Part shown: positions 33,046 through 46,176 of the stretch, piece by piece | Layout of the letters: every line of letters begins with the position of its first letter | How positions within the stretch are numbered: the first letter of the stretch is position 1 | Assembly (NCBI GenBank): GCA_021805775.1 | Contig: JAJZED010000002.1 | Coordinates: 210,390-274,389 of the forward strand | Source: a bacterium | GTDB taxonomy: Bacteria; Vulcanimicrobiota; Vulcanimicrobiia; Vulcanimicrobiales; Vulcanimicrobiaceae | Length of the DNA: 64,000 bases | Direction of reading: 5' to 3' | The notes under the pieces: model-generated | What the model saw: the letters and a program-made list of their open reading frames with translations, nothing else | Database searches by the model: none | What the model was told of the DNA's origin: nothing | Made by a program: the position numbers and the translations under genes

Positions 33046-34575
33046 TCAAGTCTCGCGGTAAAAAAACGAGTCGAGATCGAGCTCGCGCTCGACGACGTCG
33101 GCGAGTTCGTCGAGCGAGCGCTCCCGATCGCGCGCCACGAAGCGCCACTCCGTTGCAGCGTTCATTCCGAGGAAGGCACGCAGTCGCTGGAGATACTCGT
33201 GCCGAAAGATATCATCATCGAAGAGTCCGTGTACGTACGTACCCACGATACGGCCGTCCTCCGAGCGAACTCCATCGCGTCGCCGCTCCGCCGCACCGTT
33301 ATCGTGGATCTCCGCAAACGGCAGGCTTTCGGCGTCGTAAACGGTAGCGCCGACGTGAATCTCGTAGCCGCGAATCGGCGCGCCGGTAACGGTGAGGGTT
33401 CCGCGGACGCACTTCGTTGTTTTCTCGCTCAGCATAACGGTCGAGAGCGGCAAGATTGCGAGGCCGGCGTGCGTACCGCCGGCTTCGACTCCGTGCGGAT
33501 CGGCGATCTGCCGCCCGAGCATCTGCATCCCCCCGCATATGGCTAAGATACTGCCCGCCCCTCGCAACGCGCTATCGAGCCGTCGCTCGCGCAACCATTG
33601 CAGATCGGCGATCGTGTTTTTCGAACCCGGGAGGATCGCGAGATCCGCGTTAGCGATATCCTCGCTTCGATCGGTGTAGCGCAACTCGAGCGAGGGCTCG
33701 GCAGCGAGCGATTCAAAGTCGGTGAAATTCGCAATATACGGAAACGCGAGGACGGCGATCCGCAGGCGATCGTCGTCGCGACGTGCGTGCCAGGGGGCGC
33801 CGAGGCGGCGCCGCTCGAGCGAGAGCGAATCTTCTTCGTCAAGTTGTAGGTTTTTCAAATACGGCAGCACGCCATAACAGCGTCTTTCGCAGAGTTTTTC
33901 GATCTCGAGGATTCCCGGCTCGAGGAGGCTCCGCTCGCCGCGGAATTTATTGATCGTAAACCCGGCGATCCGAGCGCGGTCGCGCTCGTCGAGAAGCGCC
34001 AGCGTTCCGTATATTGCCGCAAAAACGCCGCCGCGATCGATATCGCCGACGAGCATACAGCGAGCATCGGCAGCATGGGCCATCGCCATATTAACGATGT
34101 CCCCATCGCGGAGATTGATCTCCGCCGGCGAGCCCGCCCCTTCGAGAACGATCGCATCGTACTCGGCCGCGAGGCGCTCGTACGATTCGAGCACCGCCGA
34201 CCAGAAGCGCTCGCGATTCCGCCCGCGATAGTCGGCGGCATGTACCGTGCCAAAACGCTCTCCGTGAAGAACCACCTGCGCCCCGTCGCTCGAACTCGGC
34301 TTGAGGAGAATCGGGTTCATGTCAACGCTGGGAACGATGCCGGCGGCCTCAGCCTGGAGTGCCTGCGCGCGGCCGATCTCCTTCCCATCGGGGGTGACGG
34401 CGGAGTTCAGCGACATATTTTGCGCTTTGAAGGGAGCGACGGCGATGCCGCGGCGGGCCAAATAACGGCATAGCGCCGCCGTAATCAACGATTTTCCGAC
34501 ATCCGACCCGGTGCCCAGAACCATGAACGCGTTCGCACGACGCTTTTGCCCACGCTTCCGCCCTCTCGAATTCAT
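33046..34575 (-). CDS. cobQ: Cobyric acid synthase
   Basis: This protein of about 509 residues has the N-terminal dethiobiotin-synthetase-like P-loop GTGSDVGKSLITAALCRYLARRG, APFKAQNMSLNS and VLEGAGSPAEINL. A C-terminal glutamine amidotransferase domain follows, with the nucleophile in ILAICGGMQMLG and His in GTYVHGLFD. CobQ amidates adenosylcobyrinic acid a,c-diamide at four positions. I chose ATG 34575; ATG 34524 directly before the P-loop is an alternative. It is isolated from other cobalamin genes here. Confidence 0.92.
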   Translation of the reverse strand: MNSRGRKRGQKRRANAFMVLGTGSDVGKSLITAALCRYLARRGIAVAPFKAQNMSLNSAVTPDGKEIGRAQALQAEAAGIVPSVDMNPILLKPSSSDGAQVVLHGERFGTVHAADYRGRNRERFWSAVLESYERLAAEYDAIVLEGAGSPAEINLRDGDIVNMAMAHAADARCMLVGDIDRGGVFAAIYGTLALLDERDRARIAGFTINKFRGERSLLEPGILEIEKLCERRCYGVLPYLKNLQLDEEDSLSLERRRLGAPWHARRDDDRLRIAVLAFPYIANFTDFESLAAEPSLELRYTDRSEDIANADLAILPGSKNTIADLQWLRERRLDSALRGAGSILAICGGMQMLGRQIADPHGVEAGGTHAGLAILPLSTVMLSEKTTKCVRGTLTVTGAPIRGYEIHVGATVYDAESLPFAEIHDNGAAERRRDGVRSEDGRIVGTYVHGLFDDDIFRHEYLQRLRAFLGMNAATEWRFVARDRERSLDELADVVERELDLDSFFYRET

Positions 34576-34660
34576 GCGGCGCCTCGGATTCCCGGGGAGC
34601 TCGCCAGAGCCTTTCACGGAGGGCCGGCGACCCAAGCGGCGAAAAGCGATACTTTGCCGA

Positions 34661-34687
34661 CGCCCGAAGCGATACGGGCGTTTTTTA
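34661..34687 (+). terminator. Terminator-like hairpin upstream of the S1-domain gene
   Basis: CGCCCG (34661-34666) and CGGGCG (34675-34680) form a hairpin followed directly by TTTTTT on the plus strand. No plus-strand gene precedes it, since cobQ runs leftward. It therefore lies in the probable leader of the S1 gene 45 bases downstream, where it could act as an attenuator. Confidence 0.6.
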
Positions 34688-34731
34688 TGCCGAGCCGCCT
34701 CGTGCGGCCATTCTTGGCGGAGAGCCTACCG

Positions 34732-35991
34732 ATGAACGAGCACCCTACCCTTGAAGCGCCTGAGGCGCCCGAAGCGCCCGTGCAGAGCATGATTGCCGAG
34801 GAGGCAGCTCCCGCCGACGCGGTTGAGGCAACCGCCGAATCTACCGCTACCGAGAGCGCAGTCGAGCCCGCTCCGCATCTCGGCGTCGAGCCCGCTCCGC
34901 ATCTCAGCGTCGAGCCCACTCCGCATCTCGGCGCCGAACCCGCTCCGCATCTCAGCGCCGAACCCGCTCCGCATCTCGGCGCCGAACCCGCTCCGCATCT
35001 CAGCGCCGAACCCGCTCCGCAGCTCAGCGCCGAACCCGCTCCGCAGCTCAGCGCCGAACCCGCTCCGCAGCTCAGCGCCGAACCCGCTCCGCAGCTCAGC
35101 GCCGAACCCGCCGTCGAACCCGCCGCCGAGCCGGCTGCCCCCAAGGGACCGACGCCGGAGCAGCTCGCAGCACGCCAGCGCGCTCAGGAGCGCTGGGAGA
35201 AGCTTGTTGCCGCGCATACGAGCGGCGAGAGCCGCGAAGCTCGGGTCAAATCCTTGGTGAAGGGTGGGCTCTTGCTCGACATCGACGGTTATCGAGCCTT
35301 CCTGCCCGCGAGCCAGAGCGGGGAACAGCGCGGTGCCGCTCTCGATCCTTTGGTCGGCACGAAGATCCAGGTGAAGATCATCGATGTCGATGAGGCACGC
35401 AAGCGCCTCGTCGTCTCTCGCCGCCGCGCGCTCGCGCAAGAACGGCGCGAAGGCCGAGCCGCAACGATTGCCTCGCTTGAGGTCGGTAAGGAATGCGATG
35501 CGACGGTGGTCCGTCTCACCGATTTCGGCGCATTCGTCGATCTCGGAGGTGGAGTCGATGCACTCGTCCCGATGAGCGAACTTGATTTCGAGCGCGTCGC
35601 CAAAGCCGCCGACGTTGTGAGCGTCGGCGAAAGGCTCCGCGTACGCATTCTCCGCGTCGAAGGTAACGGTAAGAAAATCGCCGCCTCGCGGAAGGCGTTG
35701 CTCGCCGATCCATGGCGCGACAATGCAGCGTTGCTTCGCAACGGCGCGACGATCGAGGGAACCGTCGTGGCTCTCGAACCGCGACTCTCGGTAGAAGTCG
35801 CTCCGGGTATCGTCGGAAACATCTCCGACCGCGAAGCGGATCCCGCCGATTACACGATCGGCGAGAAAGTCGAGGTGACGATCCGTTCCCTCGATATGCG
35901 GGCACGCCGCCTGCGCTTAAGCGTTCTTCACGGCACCCCGGCGATGAGTTCGACCGGTTTTGCCCCGCTCGGGCAGGAGCTGCGCCGCTAA
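34732..35991 (+). CDS. S1-domain RNA-binding protein with octapeptide repeats
   Basis: This 419-residue protein starts at ATG 34732 (GGAGAG upstream). Residues ~45-124 are ten tandem copies of an eight-residue unit (EPAPHLGV to EPAPQLSA), encoded by 24-bp repeats. Three S1-type OB folds follow: ~150-230 (SREARVKSLVKGGLLLDIDG), ~235-320 (VGKECDATVVRLTDFGAFVDLGGG, a canonical S1 motif) and ~325-405. It resembles ribosomal protein S1 but with an unusual acidic, Pro-rich N-terminus. It probably binds mRNA or the ribosome; whether it is the main RpsA cannot be decided here. Confidence 0.85.
   Translation: MNEHPTLEAPEAPEAPVQSMIAEEAAPADAVEATAESTATESAVEPAPHLGVEPAPHLSVEPTPHLGAEPAPHLSAEPAPHLGAEPAPHLSAEPAPQLSAEPAPQLSAEPAPQLSAEPAPQLSAEPAVEPAAEPAAPKGPTPEQLAARQRAQERWEKLVAAHTSGESREARVKSLVKGGLLLDIDGYRAFLPASQSGEQRGAALDPLVGTKIQVKIIDVDEARKRLVVSRRRALAQERREGRAATIASLEVGKECDATVVRLTDFGAFVDLGGGVDALVPMSELDFERVAKAADVVSVGERLRVRILRVEGNGKKIAASRKALLADPWRDNAALLRNGATIEGTVVALEPRLSVEVAPGIVGNISDREADPADYTIGEKVEVTIRSLDMRARRLRLSVLHGTPAMSSTGFAPLGQELRR
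34864..35103 (+). repeat. Ten tandem 24-bp coding repeats
   Basis: Units of the form GARCCCGCTCCGCAKCTCRG plus CGYC repeat ten times, encoding Glu-Pro-Ala-Pro-His/Gln-Leu-Gly/Ser-Ala/Val. The last four units are identical at nucleotide level, suggesting recent expansion by slippage or unequal crossing over. Copy number is likely to vary between strains. Confidence 0.92.
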
Positions 35992-39580: not shown

Positions 39581-40621
39581 TCACCTCACCACGATGCCGC
39601 GCTCTCCAACGAGCGTGCCGATACGCGCGGACGCCGCGACCCCCGCGGCGTGCAGTGCGGCGAGAAGATCGTCGGCGTGCCGTTCGGCGACGGCAACGAG
39701 CAGCCCGCCCGAGCTTTGCGCGTCTGCGAGTACCAACTGCGTCGCTATCGAAATCCGGTCGTCGAACTGCGCTCCATCACCGATCGCCGCCTCGAGATTC
39801 GTTCGCGTTCCACCGGGAGCGATGTTCCGCTCCGCTAGGCCGATCGCGCCCGGGAGCATCGGTACCGCAGCGGCGTCAAGACGCGCACCGAGATCCTCGC
39901 CGAGCATTTCGTGAAGATGTCCCAGTAACCCAAAACCGGTAACGTCGGTCATCGCCGCAACATCGAAACGGAGCGCACATTCGGCCGCGACGCGATTGAG
40001 CGTTACCATCGAAGCTACCGCCGGAGCGAGTTCTTCGGCCGTTATTGCATCGGAGCGACGGGCGGTCGTAAGAATCCCCGTTCCCAGCGCTTTCGTCAAG
40101 ATAATCGCATCGCCGTTGCGCCCGGTGTTATTCCTCACGATGCGCTGCGGGTGAACGATGCCCGTTACCGCAAGTCCGTACTTGGGTTCGTCGTCTTTAA
40201 TGGTATGACCGCCGATGATTGCGATACCGGCGGCCTCTGCGCTATCGACCCCGCCGCGCAAAATCGCTCCGATCGTCTCGGGGTCCATCTCCTCGGGGAA
40301 GGCAGCGATCGCCAGTGCGAAGAGCGGCGTCCCACCCATTGCATAGACGTCGGAGAGCGCGTTCGCAGCAGCGATACGGCCAAAATCGTAAGGATCGTCG
40401 ACGATCGGCGTAAAGAAATCGAGCGTCGATACGATGGCCCGCTCGTCGTCGAGGGAATAGACACCGGCGTCGTCGGCGCTCGCCGTACCGACGAGTACCT
40501 TCGGGTCGTGAATCGGGGGAAGGGCGCGCAGAACCTGCGCGAGCGCACGTGCGTCGAGCTTCGACGCTCAACCCGCGCAACTCGACAGATGGGTCAGTCG
40601 CGTTATATCGGCTTTTGTCAC
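39581..40621 (-). CDS. selD: Selenide, water dikinase, predicted selenoprotein with in-frame UGA
   Basis: Reading from GTG 40621 through a single TGA (40570-40568, codon 18) gives a full 346-residue SelD. The N-terminus is TRLTHLSSCAGU, with Sec at the place of E. coli Cys17. TASADDAGVYSLDD, LDFFTPIVDDPYDFGRIAAA and AMGGTPLFALA then follow without another stop. The C-terminus has the AIRS domain with TDVTGFGLLGH. A SECIS-like hairpin lies 32 bases after the UGA. SelD makes selenophosphate from selenide and ATP. The start is 11 bases after the permease stop and the gene is in an operon with senA, so here it also supplies selenoneine synthesis (SenC role). Confidence 0.9.
40525..40567 (-). promoter_or_regulatory. 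Bacterial SECIS-like element in selD
   Basis: In the mRNA, a 7-bp hairpin (GCGTCGA/TCGACGC) immediately follows the UGA. It is followed by an apical stem CGCGCA/TGCGCG... with stem bases 40541-40536 and 40530-40525 and the five-base loop GGUUC at 40535-40531. The loop closely resembles the E. coli fdhF SECIS (loop GGUCU), and its 32-base distance from the UGA is within the range accepted for bacterial SECIS. Binding by SelB is inferred. Confidence 0.65.
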
Positions 40622-40632
40622 GTCGCCGTTCG

Positions 40633-41718
40633 CTAATGGACGAAGAGCGCGGCGAGGCTTCCGATTAAGACGCCGCCCACGAAGATAATACCGAAGGTCG
40701 TTACGAGAACCTTGCGCGGAAAAACCTTCCGCACGATGAAGAGCGAGGGCAAGCTAATCGCCGGGAGCGTAACGATCAGCGCGATCGCCGCGCTCGTGCT
40801 CATTCCATGCGCGAGCAAGGTCTGCACGATCGGTACCTCGCCGGCGGTAGGGACGACGAAGAACGTGCCGGCGAGCGCGACCAACGCCGTCGGTAGAATC
40901 CCAGCGGTATGCAGCGTTAGTCCGGGCGGAAAGAGAAACGCGCGAAGCGCACCGAGCAAAATGACGATCGCAATATACCCCGGGAGAATGGCGACGATTT
41001 CGTTCCACATTTCCTTGAGCCAGGCCAGCGATAGCGTACGTGCGCTCGCGTCGGGGCGTTCGATCGGCGCGAGTTCGAAACTCGGAGCATCGATCTCGGC
41101 GTTCGGGAGCGCCGCGCCGAAACGATGGGCGACGGCAACAACCACCCCGATCAACAGCACCGCCGAGATCAGTCGGATAGCCGCGAATTGCCATCCCAAG
41201 ACGAAGCCCATGAAGATCAAGACTGCCGGATTGAGCAGCGGATTCCCAAGGAAAAACGCGAGCGCACCCTCCATGCTCGTGCGCTGCTTGCGCATGCCGA
41301 CGACGATCGGCGCCGTGCAGCACGTGCACATCATTCCGGCTAGAGAGATCGCACCGGCGATCGCCGCCGAGCGCGCATTTGCGGCGCCGAGGAGTTGGAG
41401 CAACCATTTCCGCGGGACGAATACTTGAATCGAAGCACCGAGGAGCAACGCGAGAACGACCGCGGTCCAGACCGCGTTAAAGTACGCAAACGTGTATTGC
41501 CACGCCGCAGCCCAGCCGACTGCCGGCGGAGCCGCAGCCGTTCCGCTGAGCATCGACGGGCCGATGGAATGGGTTGCGGCGGCGAGATGTGCCTTCCCCC
41601 AGTACGGAGCCCATTTGACGATGTAGAGTCCAACAACGGCGATCGCAATAAAGAGCAACGTACCAAAAATAAATGCTCGCGCGTTCGGACGACTTACTGT
41701 CGGTGCAGATACTGACAC
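40633..41718 (-). CDS. YraQ/ArsP-type (DUF318) permease in the selenoneine operon
   Basis: This 361-residue membrane protein has about eight to ten helices and the family motif SLAGMMCTCCTAPIVVGMRKQ, with a second half GEVPIVQTLLAHGMSTSAAIAL. It belongs to the UPF0718/DUF318 permeases that include ArsP, an organoarsenical exporter. The GTG start at 41718 has GGGAGAG upstream. It sits 36 bases after senA and 11 before selD on the same strand, so a role in moving a selenium compound (selenide source or selenoneine) is a reasonable inference. Confidence 0.85.
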   Translation of the reverse strand: MSVSAPTVSRPNARAFIFGTLLFIAIAVVGLYIVKWAPYWGKAHLAAATHSIGPSMLSGTAAAPPAVGWAAAWQYTFAYFNAVWTAVVLALLLGASIQVFVPRKWLLQLLGAANARSAAIAGAISLAGMMCTCCTAPIVVGMRKQRTSMEGALAFFLGNPLLNPAVLIFMGFVLGWQFAAIRLISAVLLIGVVVAVAHRFGAALPNAEIDAPSFELAPIERPDASARTLSLAWLKEMWNEIVAILPGYIAIVILLGALRAFLFPPGLTLHTAGILPTALVALAGTFFVVPTAGEVPIVQTLLAHGMSTSAAIALIVTLPAISLPSLFIVRKVFPRKVLVTTFGIIFVGGVLIGSLAALFVH

Positions 41719-41754: not shown

Positions 41755-43011
41755 TTAGAGCGCGCAGGTGCGGAACCCGGTGAAAATATCCCGCCGATGC
41801 GGGAGATAGAAATTTCTCCAACGGTTGGAGATCATCCGCGCACGGGTGCTCCACGCCCCTCCACGCAGAGAACGCTGTACGCCGAACCAGGGTTGCGAAT
41901 ACTCCGCATAAGCGTCGGGCGAAAAGCCCGGATAGGGTAGGAACGGCGAGGCGGTCCACTCCCAGACGTTGCCGATCATCTGCACGCAACCCCACGAGGA
42001 TGCAGCCTCGGCGAATGCATCGACGCTCGCGACGTCGCCGTACCAACCGTCGAGATTCGCACGCGTTCGATCTGCCGCGTGCTCGCCCCACGGGTAGCGG
42101 CGCCGCTCGACGCCGGTCGCGGCGACCTCCCATTGCGCTTCCGTCGGTAAACGGCGCCCGGCCCAGCGAGCGAAAGCCTCGGCTTCATACGCGTTCACCT
42201 GAACGACCGGCTCCCGGTCGCGCAAGGGAAAGTAGCGTTGAAAGTGCCGCCGTTCCCAACCCTCGTCGGCGCGACGCCAGTGGAGTGGGTGCTCGGCGCC
42301 CGCATCGAGGCGCCATCTCCAGCCCTCCGCACTCCACAACGATTCCCGACGATACCCACCATCGTCGACGAACGCGCGAAATTCAGCGCAGGTCACGCAA
42401 CGCTTCGCGATACGGAAGGCGTCGAGTTCGACTTCGTGCTCCCACTTCTCGTTATCGAAGACGAACGCATCGCCGTGGCGCGCGCCGATTCGATAGCTTC
42501 CCGCCGGAATCGCGGCGTCGCCTTCGATCTCCGTTGCGGCGGCCGGCGCGGTCGCCGTCGGTAGCGCGGGTGCCGCATAGCGCAGAGTTTGGCGCGTGTA
42601 AAGCGTCGCTTCGCCGTGCATATCTTCGTGGAAGAGCACGAGCGCTTGAAAATACTCGCTTCGTTCGTCGACGTACGGCGCGCCGAGCGTTGCATCGAGT
42701 TGTCGTTCCAGATAAGCGAGCGTCTCGGCGCGCGACGGAAGCGGCAACGACCAGCGATCGTCGTGAGCGATCTTCGCCGAATCGTAGAGCCGCTCGCTCC
42801 CGGGCAAAAGCGATGGACGCCCGAGCATCGTCCGCAACGTCCAGTGTTCGGCAAAGAAGGCAACGTGCCCGAGCTCCCACAACAACGGATTGATGGTCGG
42901 TAAAAGCGGAACGAGCAACTCCTCATCGCGCAGGTCGGCGACGAGCGCCAACGTTCGTTCGCGGGCATCCTTCAGTTCGTCGGCGCGAAAAAGCGGCACC
43001 CGGATCGCCAT
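41755..43011 (-). CDS. senA: EgtB-like selenoneine synthase
   Basis: This protein of about 418 residues has an N-terminal DinB-like four-helix domain with the metal-site histidines (LLWELGHVAFFAEHW and LFHEDMHGEATL). The C-terminal FGE-sulfatase domain ends GNVWEWTASPF and SLRGGAWSTRARMISNRWRNFYLPHRRDIFTGFR. This is the EgtB/SenA architecture, joining hercynine to a thiol or selenol donor with non-haem iron. Adjacent selD and SenB-type glycosyltransferase genes make SenA, not EgtB, the best call. ATG 43011 starts the conserved domain. No egtD is in the window, so hercynine must come from elsewhere. Confidence 0.88.
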   Translation of the reverse strand: MAIRVPLFRADELKDARERTLALVADLRDEELLVPLLPTINPLLWELGHVAFFAEHWTLRTMLGRPSLLPGSERLYDSAKIAHDDRWSLPLPSRAETLAYLERQLDATLGAPYVDERSEYFQALVLFHEDMHGEATLYTRQTLRYAAPALPTATAPAAATEIEGDAAIPAGSYRIGARHGDAFVFDNEKWEHEVELDAFRIAKRCVTCAEFRAFVDDGGYRRESLWSAEGWRWRLDAGAEHPLHWRRADEGWERRHFQRYFPLRDREPVVQVNAYEAEAFARWAGRRLPTEAQWEVAATGVERRRYPWGEHAADRTRANLDGWYGDVASVDAFAEAASSWGCVQMIGNVWEWTASPFLPYPGFSPDAYAEYSQPWFGVQRSLRGGAWSTRARMISNRWRNFYLPHRRDIFTGFRTCAL

Positions 43012-43966
43012 TCTCTCCCCGGCGCGCGTCCCCTCGCGGGCGGGGAACGCGGTCACGGCGCGCCGTTACGCGCGGCTCTTTCGCGCGTTGGGGTTCCAGG
43101 TTCGCATCTACCCCTCCGACACACCCTCGATCGAGGCCGACATCGTCGTTGCATTGCATGCAAAGAAGAGCGCTGCGGCAGCGCTTCGCTTCCGCAAAAC
43201 GTTCCCGGAACGAACGCTTATCGTCGTCCTCACCGGCACCGATATCTATCGCGATCTGCCGCGGAGTCGCACGGCAACGCGAGCGCTCGAAGCCGCCGAT
43301 GCCATCGTTGCGTTACAACCACTCGCGCTCGACCGCCTCGCGCCGTCGCTGCGAGCGAAGGCGCGCACGATCGTGCAATCGGTCTCCCTCCCGGCTCTGC
43401 CGAAGCGGGCAAAACGCAGAGCGAGCCGCTATGAATTTGCTGTGCTCGGTCATCTTCGTGCGGAGAAAGATCCCCTTCGAGCGGCCTATGCGGTCCGGGG
43501 GCTCCCGCGCGAGCCCCGCGTCGGCGTGACCCTCGCCGGGGGCATTCTCGACGATCGCTACCGAGCCCGCGCAAACGTCGAGGCCGCGCGCAATCCGCGC
43601 TTTCGCTATCGAGGAGAGATCGCCGCGCGCGCCGCGCTTGCATTGCTGGCACGCAGCGACGCACTCGTCCTTTCATCGCGCATGGAGGGCGGAGCGAACG
43701 TTTTGGGCGAGGCAATCGCACTGCGCGTTCCGGTTATCGCGTCGCGCATCGACGGCAATAGAGGCCTGCTTGGGGATGATTATCGGGGATATTACACCGT
43801 CGGATCGACCGACTCGCTACGCTCGCTCCTCAAACGATTCGTCGAAGATGCATCGTTCCGGGATGCATTGCGCGCGCAGATCGCAACGCTCGCTCCGCTC
43901 GTTCGTCCGGCCGCCGAGCGTTCGGCTTGGGCGCAGCTATTGCGTCGCTACAGGTCGCGACGATGA
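42893..43966 (+). CDS. senB: SenB-type selenosugar synthase (GT-B glycosyltransferase)
   Basis: The conserved protein starts near 43004 with RIAILSPARVPSRAGNAVTARRYARL. It continues ADIVVALHAKKSAAAALRF, LIVVLTGTDIYRDLPRS, VLGHLRAEKDPLRAA, and ends in a GT4-like donor site SSRMEGGANVLGEAIALRVPVIAS. This pattern matches the TIGR04348/SenB family, which builds a selenosugar from UDP-GlcNAc and selenophosphate. It is divergent from senA. The only ATG in frame (42893) lies within senA and overlaps it by about 119 bases; an ATT (43010) or ATC (43004) start beside the senA ATG may be the real one. Confidence 0.87.
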   Translation: MVGKSGTSNSSSRRSATSANVRSRASFSSSARKSGTRIAILSPARVPSRAGNAVTARRYARLFRALGFQVRIYPSDTPSIEADIVVALHAKKSAAAALRFRKTFPERTLIVVLTGTDIYRDLPRSRTATRALEAADAIVALQPLALDRLAPSLRAKARTIVQSVSLPALPKRAKRRASRYEFAVLGHLRAEKDPLRAAYAVRGLPREPRVGVTLAGGILDDRYRARANVEAARNPRFRYRGEIAARAALALLARSDALVLSSRMEGGANVLGEAIALRVPVIASRIDGNRGLLGDDYRGYYTVGSTDSLRSLLKRFVEDASFRDALRAQIATLAPLVRPAAERSAWAQLLRRYRSRR

Positions 43967-43981: not shown

Positions 43982-45556
43982 TCAAGATCGTCGGTCGAGC
44001 GATGCGGCGCTACGAAGAATAAAGCCCTCCCGCTGCAATCGCTCGCGAATGCCGCGCGCGTGGAGGAGTGCGTTCGGCGTATCGCCGTGGAGGCAAATGC
44101 TCTCACCGCGTCCGGAGCGGGCGAGTTCGACCGCTTGTGCGGCGGCGGCGTCGGGAGACTCGATGATTGCGGTCGGCTCTTCGCGCGGAACCAGCGTGCC
44201 GTCGTCTCGATAGCGGCGATCGGCGAAGAGCTCGCCGATCGTTCGCAAACCTCGCGTGCGCGCGCGCTCCAGCGAGCGGCTACCGGCGAGCCCGACCAGC
44301 GCGAGGGTCGGATCGACCGCGGCGACGGCTGCGGCAACGGCGTCGGCGACCTCGTCGTCGATCGCGCTGCGATTGTAGAGCGCGCCGTGCGGCTTCACGT
44401 GCGTTAGCGCTGCCCCTTCTTCAAGCGCGACCCGAGCGAGCGCCGCGATTTGCTCGGTTACGAATTCGGTAATCCGATCCCGGCGCAGATCCATCTTGCG
44501 GCGCCCGAAGCCTTCGCGGTCGGGATAGGAAGGGTGCGCGCCGACGGAGACGCCGAATCGCCGCGCCGCGCGAACGGTATCCCGCATCGAACGCTCGTCT
44601 CCGGCATGACCGCCGCACGCGATATTGGCAGAGGTCACGATATTGAGAATCGCCTCGTCATCGCCGTAACCCTCGCCGAGATCGGCATTGAGATCGATCC
44701 ACTGCATCGGCAGAAATGTCACTGCTTCGCCGATACGCGCCTGCCCGAGCTTCCAGAGATCCTCGCCGAAAATTTCGGCAAGGATCGGATAACCGCCGGT
44801 CGTCGGAGCGTCGACGCCGAGGAGAATCGGCAACCCACTCGGCGGTAGTTGTATCGTTCCCGGAAAAACCGCGAGCGTTGCAATTTCGTTCCCGGCAAAA
44901 TCGATCGGCGCTCCTTCGCAGCGCACTCCCGTTCGATCGCTCTGTGGACTCACGCTCCATCTGCGCGAACAGAGTTGAGAGAAGGGAGCGCTCTCGCGGA
45001 TGTGCACGCGCTCCCGAACGACGCGAAGGCGCGTGTCGATCGGTATTTGCTCGCGCGTGGCCGGAGGCATCGTTCCGAGCCCCCCGAGCGCCAGCAGATC
45101 GCCGTCACGAAGCGCGCGCCCCTCAAACCCGCCGAATCCCGAACGGAGATCGGTGCTCCGCGAACCGAGAACCTCCGGCACGGCGATACCGCCGCGAACG
45201 ACGATCGTCGTGCGGGCTCCAACGAGCGGCGCACCGAGTCGAAGCCGAGCGCCGGGTTTTGCGATAGTTCTGCGGTACGCTGCGACCGGCTCGCCATCGA
45301 GCGTCGCATTCGCCTCGGCACCGGCGAGCGCGAACGCGCTCGCGCTCTCGAAGCGGAGGCAGATATTTCCGTACGCGACTTCTATTGCGGCACCCCCGGG
45401 CGCGTTGCCGACGATTGCGTTCGCATCCTCGTACGCCCGCATGTCGAACGCACCACACCACGCGATTGCTTCGTGGCGATGGCCGGTACGCGGTGCGGCA
45501 ACGACCAGGCTCTGCAACCCGGCTCGCTCGATAACGATTCGCTCAGCCGTTCTCAT
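43982..45556 (-). CDS. PxpC-PxpA fusion, 5-oxoprolinase subunits
   Basis: This protein of about 524 residues has residues 1-~275 forming the biotin-dependent-carboxylase-like PxpC/KipA domain (GIAVPEVLGSRSTDLRSGFGG, LGVDAPTTGGYPILAEI). Residues ~278-524 form the LamB/YcsF PxpA domain (WIDLNADLGEGYG, ANIACGGHAGD, GAHPSYPDREGFGRR, THVKPHGALYN). The junction is one continuous frame (LPM then QWIDLNADLG). With PxpB it converts 5-oxoproline to glutamate using ATP. The ATG at 45556 overlaps the pxpB stop (ATGA). Confidence 0.9.
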   Translation of the reverse strand: MRTAERIVIERAGLQSLVVAAPRTGHRHEAIAWCGAFDMRAYEDANAIVGNAPGGAAIEVAYGNICLRFESASAFALAGAEANATLDGEPVAAYRRTIAKPGARLRLGAPLVGARTTIVVRGGIAVPEVLGSRSTDLRSGFGGFEGRALRDGDLLALGGLGTMPPATREQIPIDTRLRVVRERVHIRESAPFSQLCSRRWSVSPQSDRTGVRCEGAPIDFAGNEIATLAVFPGTIQLPPSGLPILLGVDAPTTGGYPILAEIFGEDLWKLGQARIGEAVTFLPMQWIDLNADLGEGYGDDEAILNIVTSANIACGGHAGDERSMRDTVRAARRFGVSVGAHPSYPDREGFGRRKMDLRRDRITEFVTEQIAALARVALEEGAALTHVKPHGALYNRSAIDDEVADAVAAAVAAVDPTLALVGLAGSRSLERARTRGLRTIGELFADRRYRDDGTLVPREEPTAIIESPDAAAAQAVELARSGRGESICLHGDTPNALLHARGIRERLQREGFILRSAASLDRRS

Positions 45557-46176
45557 ATACGCACGAAGCGCACGCGATCGCCGGATGCGAGCAACGTTGC
45601 GGGGGAACGCATCGGATCGAAAAGCACGCTCTCCGTTCGCCCGAGCAGGTGCCATCCGCCCGGCGAGGCGACCGGATAGACGGCGGTAAAGCTATCGCCG
45701 ATCGCTACCGAGCCCGCGGGGACGCGCGTACGCGGACGTATCCGACGCGGAGTCGATAACTGTGGATCGAGCCCGAGCAAGTACGCGAACCCGGGCGCAA
45801 AGCCCAGGAACGCCACGCTGTAGAGCGGAGCGAGGTGTCGCGCGATTGCTTCCTCTACTGAGAGCCCGTGCAGCAGGGCCAGCTCCCGAAGATCCTCTCC
45901 GTCGTAACGAACCGAAATCTCGTGGGTACGCACGGGCGAGGCGGCACGGTTCTCGTCAGCGAGGAGAGCGAGCAAGCGCCGAGCTACCAGTCGCCTCTCT
46001 CCGCGGGCAACGAGTATCGCAAGGTTGCCGAGGCCGACCACCGCTTCACGGACCTCGGACTCGCTGCGGATCGCCCGTGCCACCTCTTCGAGCTGCGCTT
46101 GCCCGACGATCCCAGGCTCCCCCTCGATCTCCAGCAGTAACGCCTCTTCGCCGTACGCCTCCACTCTCGCGCGCAT
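45553..46176 (-). CDS. pxpB: PxpB/KipI-like 5-oxoprolinase subunit
   Basis: This 207-residue protein has the KipI cyclophilin-like fold: ISVRYDGEDLRELALLHGLSVEEAIARHLAPLYSV, FLGFAPGFAYLLGLDPQLSTPRRIRPRTRVPAGSVAI and SPGGWHLLGRT. AGGAG precedes ATG 46176. It is translated ahead of, and coupled to, the PxpC-PxpA fusion, completing 5-oxoprolinase. Confidence 0.92.
   Translation of the reverse strand: MRARVEAYGEEALLLEIEGEPGIVGQAQLEEVARAIRSESEVREAVVGLGNLAILVARGERRLVARRLLALLADENRAASPVRTHEISVRYDGEDLRELALLHGLSVEEAIARHLAPLYSVAFLGFAPGFAYLLGLDPQLSTPRRIRPRTRVPAGSVAIGDSFTAVYPVASPGGWHLLGRTESVLFDPMRSPATLLASGDRVRFVRI

Follow-up and report, generated by a model that had tools for sequence, protein, structure and literature searches.

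A YraQ-type permease encoded among selenium genes: a candidate bacterial selenium transporter with apparent selenocysteine forms

A 2026 review notes that a specific high-affinity system for selenium transport is still to be identified in prokaryotes (PMC13188914). For one membrane protein, YedE, selenium transport has been predicted from the gene neighbourhood: a 2015 survey of selenium genomic contexts proposed YedE, YedF, DUF3343 and LysR_Se (PMC5322559), and neither "permease" nor COG0701 occurs in its main text. The YeeE/YedE family also has a form with selenocysteine (PMC13188914). The senABC cluster of Variovorax paradoxus, in which senA, senB and selD/senC lie together, was described as a cluster of three genes (PMC10891094). 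In the Pfam family PF03773, ArsP was discovered through its gene in an ars operon, and the protein pumps trivalent organoarsenicals out of the cell (PMC6205960). The same family includes the Cu/Zn efflux family SO_0444 (NF033936), for which the 2026 review lists a selenocysteine form with a UxC motif, and the efflux transporter SaoE (NF040736), whose related Sao proteins are selenoproteins (PMC13188914).

The permease of the window and its relatives

The window, i.e. the whole stretch of 64,000 nucleotides which was analysed, carries a permease gene between senA and selD on the minus strand, with senB divergent on the plus strand (Table 1). When compared to the cluster of V. paradoxus, the locus has the permease in addition, and its selD contains a UGA. 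The permease frame starts with GTG, and the plus-strand frame over the same positions is full of stops. We confirmed the arrangement given in the first-pass annotation, with gaps of 36 nt from senA to the permease and of 11 nt from the permease to selD; the second gap is valid only if selD starts at the GTG at 40621 and its in-frame TGA is read as selenocysteine. This TGA lies at the place where many SelD proteins have selenocysteine (SSCAG*ASK). The choice of the hairpin listed as SECIS of selD is uncertain, because a second hairpin directly follows the TGA.

Table 1. Positions of the features of the selenium locus in the window
Feature	Position	Strand	Evidence or remark
YraQ-type PF03773 permease, Cys form, 361 aa	40633..41718	minus	ORF; PF03773 120 bits; homologues beside senA
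C-T-C-C motif codons, residues 131-134	41317..41328	minus	first codon (41328-41326) TGC here, TGA in 16 related genomes
Site of the SECIS hairpin of UGA forms; in the window an imperfect stem GCGCCGAT-CGTC-GTCGGCAT, 7 pairs, no GG loop	41294..41313	minus	
senA, selenoneine synthase	41755..43056	minus	NF041186 481 bits, cut-off 420
senB, selenosugar synthase; runs divergently from senA, 5' ends overlapping	42890..43966	plus	TIGR04348 327 bits, cut-off 300
selD, selenophosphate synthetase, read through in-frame TGA	39581..40621	minus	TIGR00476 366 bits, whole frame, 1 TGA inside
In-frame TGA of selD, predicted selenocysteine	40568..40570	minus	context ...SSCAG-U-ASK...; genome with SelB and tRNA-Sec
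Candidate SECIS hairpin of selD, CGCGCAG-GTT-CTGCGCG	40525..40541	minus	fold

SenA and SenB score over their equivalog cut-offs and SelD is present, so that the locus qualifies as a selenoneine (sen) cluster. The same genome encodes SelB (G000:C3:18925-20754, 305 bits), tRNA-Sec (G000:C5:5683-5772, 65.8 bits) and, away from the sen locus, EgtD; both selenocysteine insertion and selenoneine synthesis are therefore plausible. The 5' ends of senA and senB overlap (42893-43056): since the stretch from 42896 to 43040 offers senB no usual start codon, more than 100 bases are common to both coding frames, and there is no room for a separate promoter region between the two genes. Translation of senA more likely starts at the ATG at 43011. 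Elsewhere in the window, a single ORF (43982-45655) encodes fused 5-oxoprolinase subunits PxpC and PxpA and is adjoined by pxpB (45553-46176), and an ORF at 34546-35991 resembles an S1-domain protein and carries a tandem repeat of the EPAPHLSA type in the N-terminal part.

The permease, the one PF03773 gene found in this genome, had been annotated as ArsP-like. This is right at the level of Pfam, where it scores well above the cut-off of 32.3 bits, but it does not hold beyond: the best NCBIfam match is SaoE, with 56 bits against a cut-off of 325, SO_0444 follows with 35.4 bits against 300, and the permease belongs to none of the named NCBIfam equivalogs. It also differs from SaoE in having no Sao genes nearby, from SO_0444 in having C-T-C-C with a third cysteine and a place beside selenium genes, and from ArsP in that no ars genes recur around its family, where selenium genes are found instead. 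YedE is a separate family (PF04143); it is absent from the window genome and from most carriers tested, and does not provide a clean test of complementarity. The closest named relative which we found is Escherichia coli YraQ. Its MMCTCC motif and core residues are those of the window permease, the two proteins align over their full length with about 45% identity, and we therefore call the window permease YraQ-type. YraQ, which is also a Cys form, is 53-54% identical to the Caballeronia copy; unlike the gene of the window, yraQ does not lie beside selenium genes. We found no paper assigning a function to YraQ, and no prior report on DUF318, YraQ and selenium in the open literature.

The SLAGMMCTCCTAP motif pointed out in the first-pass annotation is present, as C-T-C-C at residues 131-134. 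In 50 homologues, with UGA read as C, the invariant residues are C131 (selenocysteine or cysteine), C133, C134, H50, K35, W36, N163-P164, E294, Q299 and others. In an AlphaFold model (pLDDT 83.5) the CTCC motif and a VPTAGEVP block fall at breaks in helices, one at residues 126-131 and one at 287-293, and such breaks are often substrate sites in secondary transporters. In a test for an internal repeat, a comparison of profiles of the two halves of the permease gave a suggestive alignment around both breaks, at a non-significant E of 0.11. A sequence search of the PDB gave no match, and the fold search matched the model to no solved fold: nothing fell below E 0.2, and the hit of top probability, a TRAP transporter, was unusable. 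The selenocysteine of SO_0444 probably occupies the same first cysteine of the CxC pair as in our motif. The UxC form of that family means that selenocysteine in PF03773 is not unprecedented.

Selenium genes around the permease

We searched 149 genomes of the phylum of the window, some members of which are also named Candidatus Eremiobacteria or Eremiobacterota. The permease is present in 23 of them and SenA in 24 (23 over the cut-off and one fragment); 20 genomes have both, 3 have the permease without senA, and 4 have senA without the permease (Fisher p = 5e-18). Counted by genus, the co-occurrence is 10/2/1/57 (p = 1.8e-9). The linkage of the permease to senA is not due to chance. In 18 of the 20 genomes with both, the two genes are adjacent or one gene apart. 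The order senA-permease-selD is that of the genus of the window and of some others. Five genomes (G057, G088, G096, G097 and G098) have senA-selD with the permease inverted behind selD, G080 has an inverted permease between senA and selD, and G084 has a senB-permease pair on a different contig from senA-selD. A permease-selD pair is found in G079, a genome where no SenA was found. With so many rearranged orders, simple inheritance does not account for the arrangement. In a sister family, four genomes carry senA but no permease. SelD is encoded in 118 of the 149 genomes, and about half of those with a clear SelD do not have the permease, which is thus not required for selenium use in general. 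One metagenome-assembled genome, 84% complete (G110, loci L063 and L033), has a permease of the Cys form; SelD, SenA, a full SelB and tRNA-Sec were not found in it.

Outside the phylum, a scan of genome contigs gave 413 relatives, 80 of which were kept. The order UGA-permease-senA-senB-egtD is seen in G150 and G391, and G151 starts in the same way on a contig which ends in senA. Many Paraburkholderia have selD-selU-permease and Trinickia has selU-permease-selD, while loci of the Dyella/Rhodanobacter and Hyphomicrobium types place the permease between selB/selA or selD and fdhE...fdhA (formate dehydrogenase of the selenocysteine type). We also used a DNA pattern of the motif to survey 200 genomes of Burkholderiaceae, a procedure chosen to avoid selecting by similarity to the window. 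The motif occurs in 72 of these genomes; in the 36 loci which were read, mnmH/selU is directly upstream of the permease in 28, and selD is at 3 kb or less in 6. In the class of the Caballeronia genome, a pattern survey found only 2 of 185 genomes, one being a false positive (L183). Finally, among 32 genomes in which distant relatives of the permease occur, 29 encode SelD, against 38.3% of sequenced bacteria (PMC5322559), with a binomial p of about 1e-9 when relatedness is ignored. The linkage of the permease to selenium genes spans unrelated bacteria.

Selenium genes are absent from the surroundings of several Bacillota copies and of E. coli yraQ. For the unlinked copies, we found no recurrent family, be it of arsenic resistance, metal resistance or any other kind, among the 25 commonest families listed for 113 neighbours. 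Arsenic genes beside the permease in related genomes had been named beforehand as the observation which would speak against a selenium role; selenium genes are found there instead, and no arsenic gene recurs. On a megaplasmid of Ligilactobacillus salivarius (L139:3388-6014), YeeE/YedE, TusA, a rhodanese and the D-proline reductase PrdA are encoded next to a relative of the permease.

In-frame UGA at the first cysteine of the motif

The main point had been overlooked in the first-pass annotation: in many orthologues the first cysteine of the motif is replaced by a UGA followed by a SECIS-type hairpin. The first Cys codon of MM-C-T-C-C is an in-frame TGA in 12 of the 23 permease-bearing genomes of the phylum, and the reading frame past this TGA is open and conserved over about 200-235 residues. 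UGA is found at the same codon in four metagenome-assembled genomes from outside the phylum: G150 and G151, labelled Bacillota, G391, of the same phylum as G150, and G153, from Rokubacteria. An 8-bp stem with a GG loop is present in 11 of the 12 distinct UGA genes, always starting 15 nt after the T of the TGA. Its versions are GGTCCACT-GGC-AGTGGGCC, GCCCCACC-GGC-GGTGGGGC and GCCCCAGT-GGC-ACTGGGGC, with a variant in L031 whose loop has 4 nt; L180 is the sole gene without a hairpin. No SECIS-type hairpin exists at this geometry in any of the 68 Cys permease genes, and resampling of synonymous codons leads one to expect it in 0.46 of 11 UGA genes. These p-like numbers are descriptive, as the test at fixed geometry was adopted after the hairpin had been seen. 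It replaced a comparison of the minimum-energy hairpin with synonymous shuffles, which was too blunt.

Over the 12 rows of the hairpin alignment, 90.6% of the cells pair, against 40-65% when the partner strand is slid, and three pairs are changed on both sides. The rows being few and related, this is support and not proof. A search of Rfam gave no SECIS match, and a weak match to a CRISPR repeat which we took as chance. Since UGA stands at a conserved cysteine and the hairpin accompanies it in UGA genes and is absent from Cys genes, we concluded that the family includes a selenoprotein. Judging from sequence, this family is apparently an undescribed one: a selenium-linked YraQ-type family with UTCC is absent from the 2026 review (PMC13188914), from NCBIfam 20.0 and from the open literature which we searched. 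A tree of 82 permeases, built by a quick method, implies five exchanges between selenocysteine and cysteine without distinguishing gains from losses. The window permease is a Cys form, and the imperfect hairpin at the corresponding place is possibly a relic of a SECIS.

One may ask whether these codons are nonsense mutations or assembly errors. Every UGA gene found comes from a metagenome-assembled genome, L180 has no hairpin, and an IS605-like element interrupts the copy of G082, which is a genuine pseudogene. Yet a single codon is concerned in 16 genomes of several clades, the frame behind it is open and conserved, the hairpin shows paired changes, and the UGA genomes of the phylum possess SelB (partial in G080) and, with the exception of G057, a clear tRNA-Sec. 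We therefore rejected this explanation, which we regard as extremely improbable.

Two further observations were made on UGA copies. In G082 (L046:6894-8877, G082:C9), an IS605 OrfB/TnpB-like element splits the gene right after UTCCTGPL, within the SECIS hairpin, and a C-terminal remnant of the permease persists beyond the element. G150 and G151 (L075 and L076) have, besides the UGA-type copy in the sen operon, a second permease of the Cys type away from selenium genes.

Possible roles of the permease

The explanation which we find best, with a probability of about 0.5, is that YraQ-type permeases carry a small selenium species which supplies SelD. A YraQ-subfamily permease of PF03773 would thus serve SelD-dependent selenium metabolism: most likely, a small selenium species would be carried across the inner membrane and would supply selenide to SelD, and through SelD the synthesis of selenoneine, selenouridine or selenocysteine. 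A species upstream of SelD is the best reading because these three routes share SelD and selenide. The invariant (Sec/Cys)-T-C-C would be a transient selenol or thiol ligand at the break of a membrane helix. We give even odds to the wider proposal that these permeases form a dedicated bacterial selenium transport family for all SelD pathways which, in several lineages, would be a selenoprotein with selenocysteine in the path of the substrate. Membership in the operon, linkage to selenium genes across phyla, invariance of the motif and the UGA with its hairpin are features of the genes themselves; from this context we infer transport as such, a selenium compound as substrate, the ligand role and the direction. 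The unlinked Bacillota and YraQ copies, and G110, speak against the supply of SelD.

As for the direction, we lean mildly towards uptake and away from efflux, since the permease accompanies selenium users and not resistance genes. However, the members of PF03773 with a known or assigned function (ArsP, PMC6205960; SO_0444 and SaoE by NCBIfam name) are exporters, and cells short of selenium would have difficulty in making a selenocysteine-containing importer, a problem which SelD itself shares. The efflux precedent and a protein complete only at plentiful selenium both point to efflux. The permease might then be an overflow valve, exporting excess or toxic reduced selenium (selenide, selenodithiols, methylselenol) and protecting cells with the SelD pathway. 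Completion only when selenium is plentiful would suit such a valve, and the data on selenium linkage fit it equally well. But selenium is also toxic to bacteria which do not use it, and yet SelD accompanies nearly all of the distant relatives; moreover the permease is found among biosynthesis genes, with no family of resistance genes recurring around it. We hold this export role to be unlikely, though well worth keeping in mind.

The first-pass annotation had suggested selenoneine export or selenium import. The link to selenium is upheld across phyla, whereas the presence of relatives with selU, selD or selA/selB in loci without nearby sen genes argues against selenoneine export; for the same reason we rejected selenoneine as the only substrate. 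A dedicated transporter of selenoneine, or of the selenosugar, would explain why in the phylum the permease tracks senA (in 20 of 23 carriers) and not the far more widespread SelD, and why it stays with senB in G084 when senA and selD lie elsewhere. Against it stand, besides the close relatives just mentioned, the permease-selD pair of G079 and the conservation of the entire motif and core across sen, selU, selD and selA/selB contexts. A change of substrate specific to a lineage may have occurred, but as a general role this one is improbable. Equally one may think of a soft-metal or organoarsenical efflux pump of the ArsP kind, present in selenium loci only as a present or past selenoprotein. 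This would agree with membership in PF03773, with a motif rich in cysteine and with other selenocysteine-containing transport proteins tied to metal or metalloid resistance (PMC13188914). However, Cys forms are linked to selenium genes as tightly as UGA forms, both in the genus of the window and in Burkholderiaceae, no arsenic or metal-resistance family recurs among the commonest neighbours listed for unlinked copies, and the scores are far under the SaoE and SO_0444 cut-offs. We rejected an arsenic locus on account of these neighbours, and such a pump is very doubtful.

Supply of selenium to SelD is thus the role which we favour, and the family of the window permease makes a strong candidate for the bacterial selenium transporter still being sought. 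It gives prokaryotic selenium transport a concrete candidate and adds an apparently undescribed family to the selenoproteins. One membrane protein would link three uses of selenium, in selenoneine, in selenouridine and in selenocysteine, and the hypothesis is accessible in E. coli K-12 through yraQ, a gene of unknown function.
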